NCBI GenBank assembly: GCA_025057645.1
Contig: JANXBJ010000004.1
Span: 44,961 to 108,960 of the forward strand
Source: Anaerolineales bacterium
GTDB lineage: Bacteria; Chloroflexota; Anaerolineae; Anaerolineales; UBA4823
Length of the DNA: 64,000 nucleotides
Direction: 5' to 3'
The notes below the pieces were generated by a model. The model was not told the DNA's origin. It ran no database searches and saw nothing but the letters and a program-made list of their open reading frames with translations. This document shows, piece by piece, positions 46,112-56,050 of this stretch. Every line of letters begins with the position of its first letter. Positions within the stretch are counted from its first letter, which is position 1. The translations under genes were made by a program, and so were the position numbers.

Positions 46112-47578
46112 ATGGCATTTCGAGACCTAAGAGAGTTTATTCAGGCCCTCGAGGAACAGGATGAACTGGTGCGTGTGCGTGTACCGGTCTCGCCTCACTT
46201 AGAGATCACGGAGATCGTTGATCGCGTCTGTAAAGGGAAAGCCAAGCGCAATGTCGCTCTGCTCTTTGAAAAGGTTACGGGATATGAGATCCCGGTGTTG
46301 ATCAATGCCTTTGGCTCGGCGAAGCGGATGGCTTTGGCCCTGGGAGTGGCAAACCTCGATGAGCTTGGGCATAACCTGGGCAAACTGATCGACCCTCGCC
46401 TGCCCGGTTCTCTGGCAGAGCTGATCGCCCGCGGCCAGGATTTACTTAGGGCGCTTCGATCGATCGGCCTGGGACCCAAAAAAGTGCGCCGTGCGCCGGT
46501 GCAACAAGTCATCCTGCAAGGGGAACAGATGTCATTGGCGAGACTTCCTATCCTGAAATGCTGGCCTAAAGATGGCGGTGCGTTTATCACGCTCCCTCAA
46601 GTGATCACCCGTGACCCCCAGACCGGGGTGCGCAATGTAGGGATGTATCGCCTGCAAGTGGTCGATGAACGCACCTTGCTTGTGCACTGGCAGCGCCATA
46701 AAGGGGGCGCGGAACACCAGCGCATCGCTCAAGTCCAGCGCAGGGATCGCATTCCCGCTGCGGTGGTCTTGGGGGGTGATCCCGCCAGCATGTGGTGCGC
46801 TTCGGCACCCCTGCCGCCTAATATTGACGAATACCTGCTGGCTGCTTATTTGCGCGGTGCGCCGGTCGAGTTCGTCAACTGTGTCAGCCAACCGCTGGAA
46901 GTTCCTGCCCGGGCTGAAATCGTTATTGAGGGATACGTTGACCCCAACGATCAACGTCCGGAAGGTCCTTTTGGAGATCACACTGGCTACTACACGCCTG
47001 TAGAAAACTTTCCCGCTTTCCATGTCACCGCTATTACTCATCGCCGTGATCCCATTTACCCCGCCACGGTGGTCGGTATCCCACCGATGGAGGATGTGTG
47101 GATGGGTAAGGCCACCGAACGGCTGTTTCTGCCCCTAATGCGCCTCTTCTTGCCCGAGATTGTCGATGTGTGTATGCCCGCCGAAGGAGTCTTTCACAAC
47201 TTGGTGTTGGTCTCGATCCGTAAGCGCTATCCTGGCCATGCCCGCAAGGTCATTTTCGGTTTGTGGGGCTTAGCGCTGATGTCGTTGGCTAAAGCGATCG
47301 TGGTGGTAGATGAATGGGTGGATGTCCAAAATCTCTCGCAAGTCGCTTGGCAAGCTCTGGGGAATGTGGATTGGAGTCGCGATGTAGTCGTGGTGGATGG
47401 GCCGGTTGATCACCTTGACCATGCCTCTTATCACCACTCCTTTGGTGGCAAAATCGGCATCGATGCCACGGCCAAGCTCCCTGAAGAAGGCTACCTGCGC
47501 ACCTGGCCGCAAGTCGCTCGTATGGACGAAAGCGTGCGGGCGCGCATTGACCAAATTTGGCATCAACTCAATCTCTAG
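46112..47578 (+). CDS. UbiD-family decarboxylase
   Basis: MAFRDLREFIQALEEQDELVRV; NVGMYRLQ; EGPFGDHTGYY; PEIVDVCMPAEGVFHN. Confidence 0.94.
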   Translation: MAFRDLREFIQALEEQDELVRVRVPVSPHLEITEIVDRVCKGKAKRNVALLFEKVTGYEIPVLINAFGSAKRMALALGVANLDELGHNLGKLIDPRLPGSLAELIARGQDLLRALRSIGLGPKKVRRAPVQQVILQGEQMSLARLPILKCWPKDGGAFITLPQVITRDPQTGVRNVGMYRLQVVDERTLLVHWQRHKGGAEHQRIAQVQRRDRIPAAVVLGGDPASMWCASAPLPPNIDEYLLAAYLRGAPVEFVNCVSQPLEVPARAEIVIEGYVDPNDQRPEGPFGDHTGYYTPVENFPAFHVTAITHRRDPIYPATVVGIPPMEDVWMGKATERLFLPLMRLFLPEIVDVCMPAEGVFHNLVLVSIRKRYPGHARKVIFGLWGLALMSLAKAIVVVDEWVDVQNLSQVAWQALGNVDWSRDVVVVDGPVDHLDHASYHHSFGGKIGIDATAKLPEEGYLRTWPQVARMDESVRARIDQIWHQLNL

Positions 47579-48757
47579 GTGATGACGATGAGAATATACT
47601 CGACTCTTGCTCAACTCCTCGTACTCTTTATCCTGATCCCCGCCTGCGCACCCCAATCAACAGGTCAGCCTCCGGCTGCTGCAGAAACCGGCCAGGTGGC
47701 CATTCCTGTGCTCTCCGGCGAGGGACAAGCTCCGGGTGAGCCCTACCCCGCTCCGGCCGAGGTCTTCCAACCGACTCCCGCTGCAGATCAGCCCTACCCG
47801 GCGCCGGGTTCTCCGGTCGTCCCACCGGCTTCCTCCAGCGGCGCTTACCCGGCACCGGGTGAGACGGCCCTCCCGGTGCACGGCGGCGGGGAGAGGTTGC
47901 GCATCGCCATCTTGCCCGTTGTGGATAGCCTCCCCATGGTCGTTGCTCAGCGCGAAGGTTTGTTTGCCAAGTATGGGGTGCAAGTTGAGTTGATCCCGGT
48001 CGCCTCGGCCGCAGAGCGCGATCAGGTGATCACCGCCGGCCAGGCCGATGGCATGATCAACGACCTCATCTCGACCCTGCTATATAATAAAGAGGGCATC
48101 CAAGTGCAAGTTGTGCGCCTTGCTCGGGTCGCTACACCTACATCGGCGCAGTACCACTTAGTTGTCTCCGCAGCAAGCGGGATCGACGAAGTCAGCCAGC
48201 TCAAGGGCGTGCCGATCGGCATTTCGCAGGGCACGATCATCGAATACATTACCGACCGCCTGTTAGAGCGGGAGGGCTTCCGAGCGCAGGAAATCCAGAA
48301 GATCGCTGTGCCTAAAATCCCGGACCGCCTAGCCTTGCTCAGCTCCGGAGAACTCAAGGCTGCAACTTTGCCTGATCCCTTTTCCTACTTGGCGGTACAA
48401 CAAGGCGGGCGTTTTTTGCTGCAGGACTCCAAATATCCTGAGTACGGACACAGCACCTACGCATTTCGGAAAGCCGTGATCGACCGGAAACCTCAGGCGG
48501 TCCGGGCATTTTTAGCGGCGATCGAAGAAGCGGTGGCGCGAATTGCGCTCTCCCCTGACCAGTATGTCGGTGTATTGGTGGAGGAAAAACTGATCCCTGC
48601 GCCGCTGGAAGGCAGCTACCAGGTGCCGCCTTTCCCACCCAAGGGCATTCCCGATGAATGGCTGTGGAATGATGTATTGGCTTGGGCAACGGCAAAGGGG
48701 ATTGTTGCTACAGCCGTTTCGTATGCTGACTCGGTCACGAGTGCACTTTTACCGTGA
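47579..48757 (+). CDS. NMT1/THI5-like ABC substrate-binding lipoprotein with Pro-rich YPAP-repeat linker
   Basis: Lipobox LIPACAP; LPMVVAQREGLFAKYGVQVELIPV; PYPAP repeats. Confidence 0.85.
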   Translation: MMTMRIYSTLAQLLVLFILIPACAPQSTGQPPAAAETGQVAIPVLSGEGQAPGEPYPAPAEVFQPTPAADQPYPAPGSPVVPPASSSGAYPAPGETALPVHGGGERLRIAILPVVDSLPMVVAQREGLFAKYGVQVELIPVASAAERDQVITAGQADGMINDLISTLLYNKEGIQVQVVRLARVATPTSAQYHLVVSAASGIDEVSQLKGVPIGISQGTIIEYITDRLLEREGFRAQEIQKIAVPKIPDRLALLSSGELKAATLPDPFSYLAVQQGGRFLLQDSKYPEYGHSTYAFRKAVIDRKPQAVRAFLAAIEEAVARIALSPDQYVGVLVEEKLIPAPLEGSYQVPPFPPKGIPDEWLWNDVLAWATAKGIVATAVSYADSVTSALLP

Positions 48758-48908
48758 TCCCACCACGATTTGCAAGTGCCCTCGCCTGCGAACGTGGCGA
48801 ACGAGGTCGTCCGCCCCCCGCAGGGCGGGCGTTCGTGCCTGCGATCATCAGCGGACGGGGAGACCCGCCGTCTGACCGAGATAAAGAGATTTGCCGTCCG
48901 GCCGGACT

Positions 48909-49670
48909 ATGATTGAAGTCGAATCGATCACTTTTGCTTACCCTTCCGGAAAACCGATTTTCCTCGACTTCTCTTGGCAGGTTGCACGCGGCGAGATTTG
49001 GGCTGTTCTGGGGCCTTCCGGTTGCGGGAAAAGCACCCTGCTCTACCTGCTGGCCGGGCTGCAATTCCCGCAAAAAGGGCAAGTGCGCATCGATGGCAAG
49101 CCACTCACCCGTCCCCGTCCGCAGACCGGGTTAATTTTGCAGGACTACGGGTTGCTGCCCTGGGCAACGGTGCGTCAGAACGCCGAACTAGGGTTGAAAA
49201 TCCGTGGCTTTTACGGCCCGGATGGCAAGCACGCCCCAACGCAAATGGATTGGGATCACAACGTGATCCCTTGGTTGGAAAGACTGGGTATTGCCGCAGT
49301 CGCCGACCGCTACCCTTCCCAGATTTCCGGGGGACAGCGCCAGCGCACTGCTATTGCCCGCACATTGGTTTTGCATCCCGATTTACTGCTCATGGACGAA
49401 CCGTTCTCCTCGCTGGACGCTCCCACCCGCGAGGACTTGCAAACGCTGATCCTGCAGTTACAACTCGAAAACCGCTTGACCTTGGTGATTGTCACCCACA
49501 GCATCGAAGAAGCTGCCTTGATGGGCAGGAAAATTCTCCTGCTCTCCCAGCCGCCGATTCACCAGGCCATGATCTTCGAAAACCCCGGTGCGGGCTTGGA
49601 GCCCTACCGCAAGAGCGAAGCCTATCTAGCCCTGTGTGAGCGCTTGCGCTCCCAACTCGATCGGGCATGA
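48909..49670 (+). CDS. ABC transporter ATPase (SsuB/TauB-like)
   Basis: GPSGCGKSTLLYLLAGLQ; ISGGQRQRTAIARTLVLHPDLLLMDEPFSSLD; start refined to ATG 48909. Confidence 0.92.
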   Translation: MIEVESITFAYPSGKPIFLDFSWQVARGEIWAVLGPSGCGKSTLLYLLAGLQFPQKGQVRIDGKPLTRPRPQTGLILQDYGLLPWATVRQNAELGLKIRGFYGPDGKHAPTQMDWDHNVIPWLERLGIAAVADRYPSQISGGQRQRTAIARTLVLHPDLLLMDEPFSSLDAPTREDLQTLILQLQLENRLTLVIVTHSIEEAALMGRKILLLSQPPIHQAMIFENPGAGLEPYRKSEAYLALCERLRSQLDRA

Positions 49671-50401
49671 AACGCCGCTTAGACCTCTTGATCACCCTTT
49701 TCATTCTCCTGCTTCTCTGGCAGCTTGCTGCTTGGTGGGTCAATCGTCCCATTCTGCCCGAGCCGCGGACAGTCTTCCTCGCTTTTCTGCGCGAAACCCG
49801 AGATGACCTTCCATTTCACTTTGCTGCCAGCCTGTGGCGCGTGCTTGCTAGCACTGCTTTAGCCATTGCCACCGCTGCGCCGGCCGGTCTGCTTCTCGGT
49901 CAATCCCAGCGCCTAAACCGCCTTTTTTCCCCTCTGATCTATCTGCTCTACCCGATTCCGAAAGTTGTTTTTGTTCCGTTGGTGTTACTCTTCTTGGGCT
50001 TAGGGGATGCGCCCAAGATTCTGATCATCTATCTTATCCTGTTTTTCCAAGTTCTGGTCTTGGTGCGCGATCAGGCCGCAGCGTTACGTCCCGAGCTTCT
50101 GCTCAGCGTGCGCAGTTTAGGCGCCGGGCGGCGGGCTTTGTTTCGCTTTGTCTACTTACCTGCCAGCCTGCCGGCCATCCTGACCGCCTTGCGCCAATCG
50201 GTTGGCACTGCTGTGGCGGTGTTATATGTCGCCGAGCTGTACGCTACCCAGCGTGGGTTGGGCTACTACATCTACATAAACGGCAGCACGTTTTTCGATT
50301 ACCCGGCGATGTATGTCGGGATTCTTGCCATGGGCTTGCTGGGAGTGGGATTATATACCGGGGTGGATTACCTGGAGAAACGGTTATGTCCGTGGAAGTA
50401 A
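49667..50401 (+). CDS. ABC transporter permease (SsuC-like)
   Basis: YPIPKVVFVPLVLLFLGLGDAPKILIIYLILFFQVLVLVRD; overlaps ATPase stop. Confidence 0.88.
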   Translation: MKRRLDLLITLFILLLLWQLAAWWVNRPILPEPRTVFLAFLRETRDDLPFHFAASLWRVLASTALAIATAAPAGLLLGQSQRLNRLFSPLIYLLYPIPKVVFVPLVLLFLGLGDAPKILIIYLILFFQVLVLVRDQAAALRPELLLSVRSLGAGRRALFRFVYLPASLPAILTALRQSVGTAVAVLYVAELYATQRGLGYYIYINGSTFFDYPAMYVGILAMGLLGVGLYTGVDYLEKRLCPWK

Positions 50402-50832
50402 CCCGCTTCCCTCATCCATTGGATAGAACGGGCAGAGTCTCCAACCTGAGCCGTCGTTTGAGCCTGTCAAACTAGCAGCCTAGGGAAAACGGCTTTCGAT
50501 GAGCAGCGCTTCCAACTCCCCGAGCTGTGCAGGTGGAGTGGGGTGAGAGCTTGTGTCAGGACTTGCGCCCGTCCCCTCTTCTTGCCTTGGAAAGGGAACA
50601 GAGATAAGGGCCTCGGAAGGCAGACGAACATGTGCCATGCTTGGGGATGTTCTTAGCTGCGAGTCCATGAGCTGTGTAGGAAGACCCATTGCGATTAGGT
50701 GTGCTGAGCAGGCAGTGCCTAGGGGTGTCACTATGGGGGCGCTTTTTACGTGACAACCCTTGGCTCCACACGGTGACAAATTTCACATTGACTTCCCCTG
50801 CTGGGCTGGTTATAATCGAGGCGACAATTGAA

Positions 50833-50962
50833 GATACCTTCGGGGCAGGGTGCGGTCGGAGACGACCTATTCCCGATCGGCGGTAAAGCCCGCGAGCGCG
50901 AGGGAGCGCACGATTCGGTGAAACTCCGAAGCCGACGGTATAGTCCGGATGGAAGAAGGTCA
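50833..50962 (+). promoter_or_regulatory. FMN riboswitch (RFN element)
   Basis: Conserved blocks CTTCGGGGCAGGGTG, TTCCCGATCGGCGGTAAAGCCCGCGAGC, GATTCGGTGAAACTCCGAAGCCGACGGTATAGTCCGGATGGAAGAAGG. Confidence 0.97.
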
Positions 50963-51004
50963 CTTTGCCAGAACTCAGGCGCGCGAAAAACGCGAGCATA
51001 CGCG

Positions 51005-51041
51005 AAGCCCCGAAAGCCTTTGGTTTTCGGGCTTTTTCTTT
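51005..51041 (+). terminator. Riboswitch expression-platform terminator
   Basis: AAGCCCCGAAA-gcctttggt-TTTCGGGCTT followed by TTTTCTTT. Confidence 0.85.
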
Positions 51042-51071
51042 AGAGAGCGCCTGGGTTGGGTAGGCTCACTT

Positions 51072-51101
51072 GCCCCGAATCCGATCCGATTCGGGGCTTT
51101 A
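51072..51101 (+). terminator. Second hairpin GCCCCGAATC-CGATCC-GATTCGGGGC + TTTATATT just upstream of permease start
   Basis: 10-bp perfect stem plus short U-rich tail. Confidence 0.75.
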
Positions 51102-51118
51102 TATTACGGCGAGAAACG

Positions 51119-51943
51119 ATGAACCTAATCGAGATTCCCAAACGACTTCCTTTTCAAAGGCGACTCAGCCTTGCCGAGCATACGCTAACCGCCTTCATTT
51201 CGCTCGCAGTTATGGTGACCGTCTGGCACGGGGTCACCCAAATTTGGAGACTGCCCCCTTTCATTTTGCCCTCCCCGGCGTTAGTCTGGGAGCGCTTCCT
51301 CCGGGTGCTAGGGGACGGCAGCCTGCTTCGCCACAGTGCCTACACCCTCTTTGAGGTGCTCTGTGGGCTGAGCCTAGGCGTTCTCACCGCAACCCTGCTC
51401 GGCTACCTACTGGCCAAATCGCATTGGTTTGAGCGTCTTTTATCCCCGTATATTGTTGCCAGCCAATCGATTCCGATTGTGGCGATTGCGCCCCTGTTGG
51501 TCATTTGGTTCGGGCCGGGGGTTTTCTCCAAAATTTTGATCTGTGCCTTGATCGTCTTCTTCCCGGTTTTGGTCAACACCGTTGTTGGATTGCACTCCGT
51601 GCCGGAGGAATTGACCGACCTAATGCGCTCCTTGAAGGCCGACCGTTGGCAAACAGTTCGGTTCTTGGAGATCCCGGCTGCCCTACCGGTCTTCCTCGGT
51701 GGGTTGCGAATCGGTGCCACTCTGTCGGTGATCGGCGCCGTGGTAGGCGAATTTGTCGGCGCCGACCGCGGTCTCGGTTTCCTGATCAATGTCGCCCGTG
51801 GCAGGTACGATACCCCTCTGGTCTTTGTTGCGGTTTTTACCCTAATCGCCATGGCCTTGCTCCTCTATACCAGTGTCCTTGCCCTTGAAAAGCGGTTGCT
51901 CGCCTGGCGACAACCCCAAGAAGAACCCCATTCCATTCCATAA
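51119..51943 (+). CDS. ABC transporter permease, putative riboflavin transporter RibX-like
   Basis: [49 protein letters not shown]; downstream of FMN riboswitch; start refined to ATG 51119. Confidence 0.88.
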   Translation: MNLIEIPKRLPFQRRLSLAEHTLTAFISLAVMVTVWHGVTQIWRLPPFILPSPALVWERFLRVLGDGSLLRHSAYTLFEVLCGLSLGVLTATLLGYLLAKSHWFERLLSPYIVASQSIPIVAIAPLLVIWFGPGVFSKILICALIVFFPVLVNTVVGLHSVPEELTDLMRSLKADRWQTVRFLEIPAALPVFLGGLRIGATLSVIGAVVGEFVGADRGLGFLINVARGRYDTPLVFVAVFTLIAMALLLYTSVLALEKRLLAWRQPQEEPHSIP

Positions 51944-51953
51944 GGAGACTTCC

Positions 51954-52958
51954 ATGCCCCGTTCAACTCTCTCCCTCTTTCTTTTGCTTTGGCTCGGCCT
52001 CACAACCTTTGCCTGTGCCCCTCAGATGGGCGGCTCCCAAACGCAGAGCCCCCCTACAAAAGCCGTGGACAGGGTGCGTTTGCCCATGGGCTATATCCCG
52101 AATGTGCAGTTTGCTCCCTTCTATGCCGCCCAAGACTTCGGCTACTTCTCGGACGAGAACATCGCCATCGAATTCGACTACAGTTTTGAGACCGATGGCA
52201 TTGCGCTGGTTGGGGCGAACAACCTGCAGTTCACCATAGCTTCGGGTGAGCAGGTCCTGCTCGCTCGTGCCCAAGGCTTGCCGGTCGTGTATGTGATGGC
52301 CTATTACCACGACTACCCTGTAGGGGTCGTTTCGTTCCCAGAGCAGAATATTAAAACCCCGGCTGATCTGAAGGGCAAGAAGATCGGTGTACCCGGCCTA
52401 TTCGGCGCCACCTATATCGGCCTGCGCGCTCTGATGAAAGTGGGCGGCGTGGGCGAAGCCGAGGTGATTCTGGATTCGATCGGCTACAACCAAGTGGAAG
52501 CCTTGATCGCCGGGCAAGACCAAGCTGTGGTGGTCTATGCTAACAACGAGCCTATCCAACTGGCCGCTCGGGGGTATACCGTTGACCTGATCAAGGTCGC
52601 AGATTACGTTCAGTTAGCCTCGAATGGCTTGGTGACCAACGAAAAGACCCTTTCTGAAAACCCCGATTTGGTGCGCCGCATGATTCGCGCCATTCTGCGC
52701 GGCATGAACTACGTTCTTCAAGACCGCGATCAAGCCTATGAGATTTGCACCAAATATATCCCCGGCCTGACCGAAAGCGATGAGCGCGTTCAGCGCGAAG
52801 TCCTGCGGGCCACAATCGAATACTGGAAGGCAGAAAGAATCGGTCATTCGGACCCGCAGGCTTGGCAGAACATGCACGATCTGCTCTTGGAAATGGGATT
52901 GCTTCCCAGTCCACTCCCGGTAGATCAAGCCTTCACCAATCAATTGCTCACGCCCTAG
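51954..52958 (+). CDS. ABC transporter substrate-binding lipoprotein, putative RibY-like
   Basis: Lipobox TTFACAP; RLPMGYIPNVQFAPFYAAQDFGYFSDENIAIEFDYSFETDGIALV. Confidence 0.88.
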   Translation: MPRSTLSLFLLLWLGLTTFACAPQMGGSQTQSPPTKAVDRVRLPMGYIPNVQFAPFYAAQDFGYFSDENIAIEFDYSFETDGIALVGANNLQFTIASGEQVLLARAQGLPVVYVMAYYHDYPVGVVSFPEQNIKTPADLKGKKIGVPGLFGATYIGLRALMKVGGVGEAEVILDSIGYNQVEALIAGQDQAVVVYANNEPIQLAARGYTVDLIKVADYVQLASNGLVTNEKTLSENPDLVRRMIRAILRGMNYVLQDRDQAYEICTKYIPGLTESDERVQREVLRATIEYWKAERIGHSDPQAWQNMHDLLLEMGLLPSPLPVDQAFTNQLLTP

Positions 52959-52973: not shown

Positions 52974-53789
52974 ATGGCCAAGTCCCCTCCCGAGGTCATC
53001 CCAACCTCCAAGGCTAAGGCAACGGAAACCGAGGAAGCGCGAGTGGCTATTGAGGTGCGCAATCTCAGCGTCACCTTCCGCAACGGCAATGGTGGATTGC
53101 GCGCCATCCAGGGAATCTCCTTTTGCATCCGCGAGCGCGAATTCGTCTGTGTTTTAGGCCCCTCGGGCAGCGGCAAATCCACGTTGCTGCGTGTGCTGGC
53201 TGGCCTCCTGACCCCTACGCAGGGAGAGGTTTATTTCTACGGCGAACCGCTCAAGGAACCGCGGCGTGAAATCGGCCTGGTTTTCCAAAAGGCCAACCTG
53301 ATGCCTTGGCGAACTGCGCTGCAAAACATCGTGCTGCCTTTGGAATTGCAAAACGTGCCCAAGGCGGAAGCGCGCCGCCGAGCAATGGAGCTGATTGAAT
53401 TGGTCGGTTTGCACGGCTTTGAGGACACTCTCCCGCGCGATCTCTCCGGCGGCATGGCGCAGCGGGTGGCTATTGCCCGCGCGCTAGTCCATGACCCCCA
53501 GGTGCTTCTCTTGGATGAACCTTTTGGCGGGCTGGATGCCTTGACTCGCGAGCGCATGGGCGACGAATTGCTGCGCATCTGGCAAGCGCGGCGCAAGACG
53601 GTGGTCATGGTGACCCACTCTATTCCGGAGGCGATCTATCTCTCCGATCGCGTTTTGGTCTTCACCCCCAGGCCGGGCCGCCTCAGGCTGGACCTGCCGA
53701 TCTATCTCCCTAGGCCGCGCACAGAGGAGATCCGTTACTCACCAGCTTTTGGGGAATTGGCAAGGCGCCTGCGAGCGGAGATTGGCTAG
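52974..53789 (+). CDS. ABC transporter ATPase, putative riboflavin transporter ATPase
   Basis: GPSGSGKSTLLRVLAGLL; LSGGMAQRVAIARALVHDPQVLLLDEPFGGLD. Confidence 0.92.
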   Translation: MAKSPPEVIPTSKAKATETEEARVAIEVRNLSVTFRNGNGGLRAIQGISFCIREREFVCVLGPSGSGKSTLLRVLAGLLTPTQGEVYFYGEPLKEPRREIGLVFQKANLMPWRTALQNIVLPLELQNVPKAEARRRAMELIELVGLHGFEDTLPRDLSGGMAQRVAIARALVHDPQVLLLDEPFGGLDALTRERMGDELLRIWQARRKTVVMVTHSIPEAIYLSDRVLVFTPRPGRLRLDLPIYLPRPRTEEIRYSPAFGELARRLRAEIG

Positions 53790-53972: not shown

Positions 53973-55628
53973 ATGACCAAACTGGATGCTGAGTTGCAGC
54001 GTTGGGAGGAAGCTGTACTCAAACCGACTCTGTCCCGTTTTCCGGAACGAAAAGCAGAGTTCAAGACCTCCTCGGGCATCCCGATGCCCCGCTTTCTCCT
54101 CCCTACTTGGGAAGATGAGAGTTATTTGGAAAAGCTTGGCTTTCCCGGCGAGCCGCCCTTTACGCGCGGTATCCAGCCGACTATGTACCGCGGCCGCCTG
54201 TGGACAATGCGCCAGTATGCCGGCTATGCAACCGCCGAGGAGTCCAACCGCCGCTATCGCTACCTGCTCAAGCAAGGTCAGACCGGCTTGTCGGTTGCTT
54301 TCGACCTGCCCACCCAGATCGGCTACGATGCCGATGACCCGATCGCCAGCGGCGAAGTGGGGAAAGTGGGAGTCTCGATTTCCTCTTTACAAGATATGGA
54401 GACGCTATTTCGCGACATCCCACTCGATAAGGTCTCAACCAGCATGACCATCAATGCCCCGGCAGCGATCTTGCTGGCGATGTATATTGCTGTCGCCAAG
54501 AAACAAGGGGTGGAAATCCGCCAGTTGCGGGGCACGATTCAAAACGACATCCTCAAGGAATACGTGGCGCGGGGCACATACATCTTCCCCCCCAAGCCCT
54601 CCATGCGCCTGATCACCGATGTCTTCCGGTTCTGTCATGCCGAGATGCCCCATTGGAACGCAATCAGCATCTCCGGTTACCACATTCGCGAGGCTGGCTC
54701 GACCGCCGTCCAAGAGGTTGCGTTCACCCTAGCCCACGCCATCGCTTATATCGAGGCAGCGATCCAAGCCGGACTCAACGTAGACGAGTTCGCCGACCAA
54801 ATCTCTTTCTTCTTCTGCGTTCACAACCACTTTCTGGAGGAGATTGCCAAGTTTCGCGCCGCACGACGCTTATATGCCAAAATTATGCGTCAGCGTTTTA
54901 AGGCACAGAACCCGCGCTCATGGATGCTGCGCTTTCACTCCCAGACTGGCGGTTCTACCCTTACTGCCCAGCAGCCAGAGAACAACATCGTACGCACTGC
55001 CCTGCAAGCTTTGGCGGCGGTCTTGGGCGGCACCCAGTCGCTGCACACCAACAGCATGGACGAAGCCCTCTGGCTGCCTACCGAGACCTCGGCGCGCATT
55101 GCTCTGCGCACCCAGCAGATCATCGCCTACGAGTCGGGCGTCGCTGATACTGTCGATCCGCTAGCTGGTTCTTATTTGCTCGAGTACCTGACCGATGAGA
55201 TCGAACGACGCGCTCAGGTTTATCTCGACCACATCGACGCTCTAGGCGGCGCACTTATGGCGATCGAACAAGGGTACATTCAGAACGAAATCCAGAACGC
55301 AGCCTATGAAACCCAAAGGGCGATCGAGCGTGGGGAACAAATCGTGGTCGGCGTGAACTGTTTTCAAATAGAAGAAAAGCTCGAACTGGAGCGCTTAAAG
55401 GTCGACCCAGCTATTGAAGTAACCCAGCGCCAGCGTCTGGCAGAGTTGCGCGCCAAACGCGATCATGCTCGTGTTCAGGAACTATTGGCGCAGTTGGAGA
55501 GCACGGCTCGGGGAGAGGGCGCGCTGATGCCCCTCTTCATCGAGTGTGTGGAGAATTCCGTCACCCTCGGTGAGATTTGTAATACCTTGCGCCGCGTTTG
55601 GGGCGAATACCGACCACCTCAATTTTAG
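53973..55628 (+). CDS. methylmalonyl-CoA mutase family, large (TIM-barrel) subunit
   Basis: [65 protein letters not shown]; no C-terminal DxHxxG B12-binding domain. Confidence 0.94.
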
Positions 55629-55636
55629 GAGACTCA

Positions 55637-56050
55637 ATGCCTACCATCCGCAGAATTGACCACTTAGCTGTTGTCGTCTCTGACTTGGAAGCCTCCCTCG
55701 CCTTCTGGCGGGATGCGCTGGGCATCCCACTCGCCGAAGTGCGCCAAGTGCCTGCAGAGGCTGCCGAAGTGGCGTTCCTGCCGGTTGCCGATTCGGAGAT
55801 CGAACTCGTGCGTCCGACCACCGAGGAGAGCGGTTTGGCCAAATATCTCGTCAAGCGCGGGCCGGGCATGCACCATATTTGCTTGGAAGTGGACGACTTG
55901 GCGGGAATGTTGCAACAGCTCAAGGCCAAAGGGATTCGTTTGATCAACGAAGAACCCCGTGTGGCAACCGATGGGAAAAAGTATGCTTTCATCCACCCCG
56001 AGAGCACGCATGGCGTGTTGGTCGAGCTGTATGAGCTTGCCAGACCGTAG
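55637..56050 (+). CDS. mce: methylmalonyl-CoA epimerase
   Basis: RRIDHLAVVVSDLEASLAFWRDALGIPL; GPGMHHICLEVDD; HPESTHGVLVELYE. Confidence 0.92.
   Translation: MPTIRRIDHLAVVVSDLEASLAFWRDALGIPLAEVRQVPAEAAEVAFLPVADSEIELVRPTTEESGLAKYLVKRGPGMHHICLEVDDLAGMLQQLKAKGIRLINEEPRVATDGKKYAFIHPESTHGVLVELYELARP

Follow-up and report, generated by a model that had tools for sequence, protein, structure and literature searches.

The window, a stretch of 64,000 nucleotides, is derived from an anaerolineal Chloroflexota genome (assembly 3.1 Mb, completeness 95.75%) whose closest relatives are Anaerolineales genomes. Within it, a promoter is followed by one FMN riboswitch aptamer, two terminator-like hairpins and the genes of a putative riboflavin importer. 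The features are listed below, together with the switching strand S0 and its two targets, A1 and A2.

50788-50816, plus strand: sigma-70-type promoter TTGACT-17-TATAAT, 11 of 12 consensus matches
50832-50964, plus strand: FMN riboswitch aptamer (RFN element), RF00050, 95.1 bits
50839-50849, plus strand: S0, switching strand UUCGGGGCAGG (P1 5' strand and adjoining conserved core), complementary to the 5' arms of T1 and T2
51007-51014, plus strand: A1, GCCCCGAA, 5' arm of T1 and candidate antiterminator target 1, complement of S0
51009-51031, plus strand: T1, putative intrinsic terminator hairpin of 10 bp, with the tail CTTTTTCTTT at 51032-51041
51069-51079, plus strand: A2, CUUGCCCCGAA, 5' flank and arm of T2 and candidate antiterminator target 2, 11-bp complement of S0
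51072-51097, plus strand: T2, second hairpin, perfect 10 bp (7 G-C), with the tail TTTATATT at 51098-51105
51108-51113, plus strand: Shine-Dalgarno-like GGCGAG, outside T2
51119-51943, plus strand: RibX-type ABC permease, PF00528 (BPD_transp_1), E 1.1e-33
51945-52958, plus strand: RibY-type NMT1-like substrate-binding protein, PF09084, E 1.9e-46
52974-53789, plus strand: ABC ATPase (RibZ-like in Chloroflexi usage), PF00005, E 1.5e-35

RibXY(Z) importers are defined by a COG0600-type permease and an NMT1-like binding protein under FMN control (PMC4418817), and this arrangement was found in the window. The domain matches and the analogy with Chloroflexus, where this type has been tested (PMC4418817), support the originally predicted RibX/RibY/ATPase cluster as a putative riboflavin importer. 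Among solved chains, pyrimidine (thiamin precursor) binding proteins are the nearest to the RibY-type protein. In an E. coli riboflavin auxotroph, RibXY of Chloroflexus aurantiacus rescued growth at low riboflavin (PMC4418817); an earlier study had reported that ribXY is FMN-controlled in Chloroflexi (PMC3766115). Both systems contain a permease and an NMT1-like binding protein controlled by an FMN riboswitch (PMC4418817, PMC3766115). They differ in that the window cluster includes an ATPase gene, as in a few Chloroflexi (PMC4418817), that the window organism is without the biosynthesis genes searched for, and that riboflavin transport has been shown for the Chloroflexus proteins only (PMC4418817).

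Other genes flank the cluster. A second NMT1-like ABC importer lies immediately upstream, at 46112-50401, after a UbiD-type decarboxylase (menaquinone family, TIGR03701); its genes encode a binding protein (47579-48757), an ATPase (48891-49670) and a permease (49667-50401), and no riboswitch was found at 46112-50401. The downstream region 53973-56050 contains a gene resembling the methylmalonyl-CoA mutase large subunit and, after it, a short gene (55598-56050) for a putative glyoxalase-fold epimerase.

The flavin genes of the assembly were then considered. No ribB (DHBP synthase domain), riboflavin synthase or ribH was detectable in the 95.75% complete assembly; RibF (flavokinase/FAD synthetase) was found in it. 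The organism is probably dependent on imported flavin, with a slight caveat for the incompleteness of the assembly, and ribH was missing from 12 of the 13 genomes searched. The RF00050 match in the window is the single FMN riboswitch genome-wide. Since the three biosynthesis genes are not detected but RibF is present, the switch probably guards the sole flavin supply, and such control fits the biology of a host that is apparently unable to make riboflavin.

The complete RFN consensus of the original prediction was checked by a covariance search. The RF00050 match scored 95.1 bits (gathering threshold 66.2, E 1.2e-20) and covered the model at full length (1-138 of 138), in sequence and structure. 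FMN riboswitches control genes of flavin synthesis or transport, and the RibX, RibY and ATPase genes are located downstream. The assignment as an FMN riboswitch, which would bind FMN, is supported. The promoter -10 region GGTTATAATC is retained in most members of the genus. The P1 5' strand and the adjoining conserved core contain UUCGGGGC (50839-50846, within S0), and CTTCGGGGCAGGG was found in this region in 127 of 139 leaders.

These leaders define the sample. Of 162 aptamer loci collected, 153 are followed by a RibX homologue; these represent 139 distinct ribX leaders of the class. The FMN riboswitch itself was present in 56 of 61 relatives and in 237 of 297 genomes of the class.

The presence of one aptamer and two terminator-like hairpins in the window leader was confirmed. 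T1 has the 10-bp stem and tail expected of the terminator predicted after the aptamer, and it is conserved across the genus. The second perfect 10-bp stem is also as predicted; its distance to the ATG at 51119 was revised from about 18 nt to 21 nt from the end of the stem, or 13 nt from the end of the TTTATATT tail. The two stems are separated by 40 nt. The U-tract score is 3.2 for T2 vs 4.5 for T1, and in the window genus the T2 tail is not a clean U-tract, so the efficiency of T2 is uncertain. The idea that the interval between the two stems contains the remains of a second aptamer was rejected, as it is only 40 nt long and there is no second RF00050 match. An extra stem around T1 in the window fold (50977-50983 with 51047-51053) was also rejected, as the linkers vary within the genus.

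A scan for terminator patterns gave 3 sites vs 2.5 +/- 1.3 in shuffled sequences, which alone is no evidence, and the evidence for the hairpins is their conservation. T1 and T2 are both present in 6 of 6 genus members and in 2 of 2 members of the sister genus. In the alignment of orthologous leaders, the cores of T1 and T2 are almost unchanged within the genus, and the linkers differ freely; the second hairpin is neither absent nor unstructured in any of the six. Across the class, compensatory pairs were found at position 4 of the T2 stem (A-T 24, C-G 11, T-A 5, G-C 3) and at position 6 (G-C 14, T-A 12, C-G 4, A-T 4). The comparison indicates that T2 is a real, selected structure and no accident. 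Depending on the threshold, at least two such hairpins were found in 53-59 of the 139 leaders (about 40%), and one in 62-66. On the RibX tree the two-hairpin state is clustered, yet at least 15 changes are needed, which indicates that it was gained or lost repeatedly. With about half of the class leaders carrying a single hairpin, these repeated changes also indicate that T2 is dispensable. A locus labeled L102 and a few other leaders contain three hairpins with a GCCCCGA arm.

That the tandem hairpins are functionless by-products of a recent duplication deserves hardly any credence: T1 and T2 do share an arm sequence and the two-hairpin state was repeatedly gained and lost, but both hairpins are kept in the genus and sister genus despite diverged linkers, and T2 carries compensatory pairs across the class.

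The shared arm links both hairpins to the aptamer. T1 and T2 have a common 5' arm, GCCCCGAA, which is the reverse complement of UUCGGGGC. The 29 kb of leaders contain 89 copies of this 8-mer, vs one in the 55 kb upstream of the aptamers and none in 69 kb of ribX coding sequence. Among the terminators of FMN leaders, 114 of 179 (64%) contain its GCCCCG core, vs 1 of 407 other terminators from the same loci; on this low background, GCCCCG was rejected as a generic Anaerolineae terminator motif. The 5' arm is also retained regardless of the hairpin it forms: 101 hairpins have GCCCCG in the 5' arm with no CGGGGC in the 3' arm, vs 5 with the reverse. Of 50 hairpins whose helix begins within the C-run, 33 have GC as the two bases immediately outside it. 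In 13 of 51 T2 stems, a C is opposite an A at one position. This C.A mismatch, with GCCCC opposite GAGG or GGAG, was seen in L006, L088, L103, L106, L109, L112, L117, L129 and L131, although the ribX start codon is far away in these leaders. GAGG of the T2 3' arms was rejected as a general Shine-Dalgarno sequence because it is near the start codon in some cases only.

The arm also changes with the aptamer. Leaders with the aptamer variant UUCAGGGC have the arm GCCCUG (L048, L132, L168, L169, L172; at least 4 lineages). Among hairpins of leaders whose aptamer has G, the arm base is C in 148 and T in 3, the latter being counter-cases; the Fisher p value of 8e-8 is optimistic, since the rows are phylogenetically non-independent. 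L123 combines the aptamer sequence UUUGGGGC with the T2 sequence GCCCCAAA, which indicates that T2 itself, and not T1 alone, is tied to the aptamer. Together, the comparisons of these leaders indicate that selection acts on the arm through its pairing with the aptamer and not through the hairpin alone.

Folding energies, calculated without tertiary structure and folding kinetics, were compared along the order of transcription. As long as the first hairpin lacks its 3' arm, S0:A1 is preferred to P1 in 105 of 109 leaders, by a median of 9.6 kcal/mol. When the first hairpin is complete, S0:A1 and P1 are near balance (median 0.9 kcal/mol), as expected for a switch that can be tipped by ligand binding to P1. 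The duplex energies in the window are -24.7 kcal/mol for S0:A2 vs -21.1 kcal/mol for S0:A1; S0 pairs with 8 bases of A1 vs 11 of A2, which gives A2 a 3-base foothold. With T1 refolded, S0 is more stably paired with A2 than with A1 in 47 of 49 leaders at the point where A2 emerges (median 14.6 kcal/mol), and in 44 of 49 after T2 has been completed (median 8.2 kcal/mol). In the full-length window RNA, T1 and T2 together are 3.8 kcal/mol more stable than S0:A2 with T1, so the ON state must be kinetic. FMN riboswitches have been described as kinetically driven (PMC7573352).

The covariation and the energies predict that T1 and T2 are mutually exclusive with S0:A1 and S0:A2, as in a transcription-attenuation platform. 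A probable reading is FMN-OFF transcription attenuation by two consecutive terminators under a single switching strand. With FMN, S0 (UUCGGGGC) would be held in P1, and T1 and then T2 would form and halt RNA polymerase, so that termination would get two chances from one signal. Without FMN, A1 would pair with S0 on emergence and T1 could not form. A2, on its own emergence, would then capture S0 from A1 by strand displacement; T1 would refold harmlessly behind the polymerase, T2 would be blocked, and ribXYZ would be transcribed. The hand-off of S0 from T1 to T2 is predicted by the energy model, and we infer FMN dependence at each terminator. For the second hairpin, a back-up terminator or a translational element had originally been proposed. 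A second, FMN-controlled terminator is supported, as the hairpin is conserved, covaries and has a 5' arm matching the switching strand; the translational part of the proposal is not supported in the window, as the Shine-Dalgarno-like sequence is outside T2. The 5' arm common to both hairpins, complementary to the aptamer strand, had no place in the original proposal.

An unlikely alternative is that T2 is a back-up terminator outside riboswitch control, which would always form and impose a fixed fractional cut in expression. T2 is a stable local hairpin, the folding model forms it in 45 of 49 leaders if S0 is kept on A1, and its weak U-tract in the window genus would make leak-through possible. 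However, a fixed terminator would have no reason to copy GCCCCGAA, when even GCCCCG occurs in 1 of 407 background terminators, to keep this arm opposite mismatched 3' arms (C opposite A in 13 of 51 T2s), or to change the arm with the aptamer, as in L123.

In an improbable third arrangement, the register would shift without FMN: S0 would occupy A1, the T1 3' arm released in this way (S1) would occupy A2, and both terminators would be blocked together. S1 and A2 are complementary (-9.3 kcal/mol in the window), and when S0:A1 is enforced, the model predicts at least 4 S1:A2 pairs for 32 of 49 leaders while T2 still lacks its 3' arm. When T2 is complete, however, the S0:A1 and S1:A2 chain survives in only 3 of 49 leaders, which favours the hand-off of one antiterminator strand; S0:A2 is also much stronger, and A2 of L123 fits the variant aptamer strand and not S1.

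Also improbable is T2 as a translational element that bars ribosomes from messages escaping T1. In both the genus and its sister genus, T2 ends 21-26 nt upstream of the AUG; elsewhere, the final hairpin is right next to the start codon or has GAGG in its 3' arm, like the dual platforms of PMC2258182. In those dual transcription-translation platforms, the terminator lies at most 10 nt from the start codon or the ribosome-binding site is inside the hairpin (PMC2258182). In the window, the T2 stem is 21 nt from the ATG, GGCGAG is outside it, and the predicted accessibility of GGCGAG is nearly the same in all states, so the model does not support T2 as a Shine-Dalgarno sequestor here. Some leaders of other lineages (e.g. 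L150, L153, L164) have their final hairpin directly at the start codon, which fits the dual platforms of PMC2258182, and it may exert translational control there.

The FMN-OFF attenuation reading with two terminators was also placed in its taxonomic context. The two-terminator form looks mainly anaerolineal, since the sampled leaders of other Chloroflexota classes have other platforms or a single terminator; phylum-wide generality of the tandem hairpins was rejected on the same leaders. For the wider claim, namely that one strand used twice would give two successive FMN-dependent decisions and that this two-checkpoint platform recurs across many Anaerolineae lineages, the chances are about even.

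Several different arrangements were observed among the other leaders. In other Anaerolineae families, with an aptamer-A variant (L175-L180), the FMN platform is of another type. It is often a terminator that carries the palindrome GGCGATCAGGCACGACCTGATCGCC, and this terminator (containing CACGACC) could pair with the P1 3' strand. Leaders L189, L191, L192, L194 and L201, from another Chloroflexota class, carry CTCCCTTA...CCCCCTGGGTTAGTTGAATTGAC...CCGAGGGAT before the start codon with no evident terminator, and are possibly a conserved translational FMN platform. A c-di-GMP-II-GAG riboswitch was found on the minus strand in L087 (2279-2383) and L089 (2249-2352), a few hundred bases from the FMN riboswitch and on the opposite strand.

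Riboswitch platforms are usually drawn with one aptamer and one decision. If the proposed mechanism is true, this widely conserved case of one aptamer and two terminators with a single antiterminator strand would show how a switch can become tighter or steeper with no additional aptamer. The leaders, about 50 of them with two hairpins and as many one-hairpin relatives to serve as controls, would also allow strand displacement during transcription to be tested on natural, defined sequences.

The aptamer, the OFF logic and the importer are of already known kinds. No description of two FMN-riboswitch terminators with a common switching strand was found in the open-licence literature, which is weak evidence of absence. 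Tandem riboswitches, including 31 FMN doublets, also have several expression platforms per leader; each platform there has its own aptamer, whereas the window leader has one (PMC9481103). The rimP leader likewise has two tandem terminators in one attenuator, but it is not an FMN riboswitch and has an inverse motif in its second terminator (PMC2965389). The Bc1 c-di-GMP-I riboswitch of Bacillus thuringiensis has a dual terminator, both parts of which work in vitro (PMC11218506); its authors state that a dual terminator within one platform is rarely seen, and they propose dual transcription-translation control, but Bc1 showed no response to c-di-GMP in vitro. Bc1 and the window leader both have two intrinsic terminators (putative in the window) after one aptamer, 28 bp apart in Bc1 and with 40 nt between the stems here. 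Bc1 differs in ligand and phylum, and no shared antiterminator strand was seen for it in the text consulted (PMC11218506). The typical attenuation-type FMN riboswitch (RF00050) is like the window leader in its full aptamer, its expected OFF logic, the competition of a P1 strand with a terminator, and its link to riboflavin uptake; the window leader differs from it in having two consecutive candidate terminators, whose 5' arms are complementary to the same P1 5' strand.
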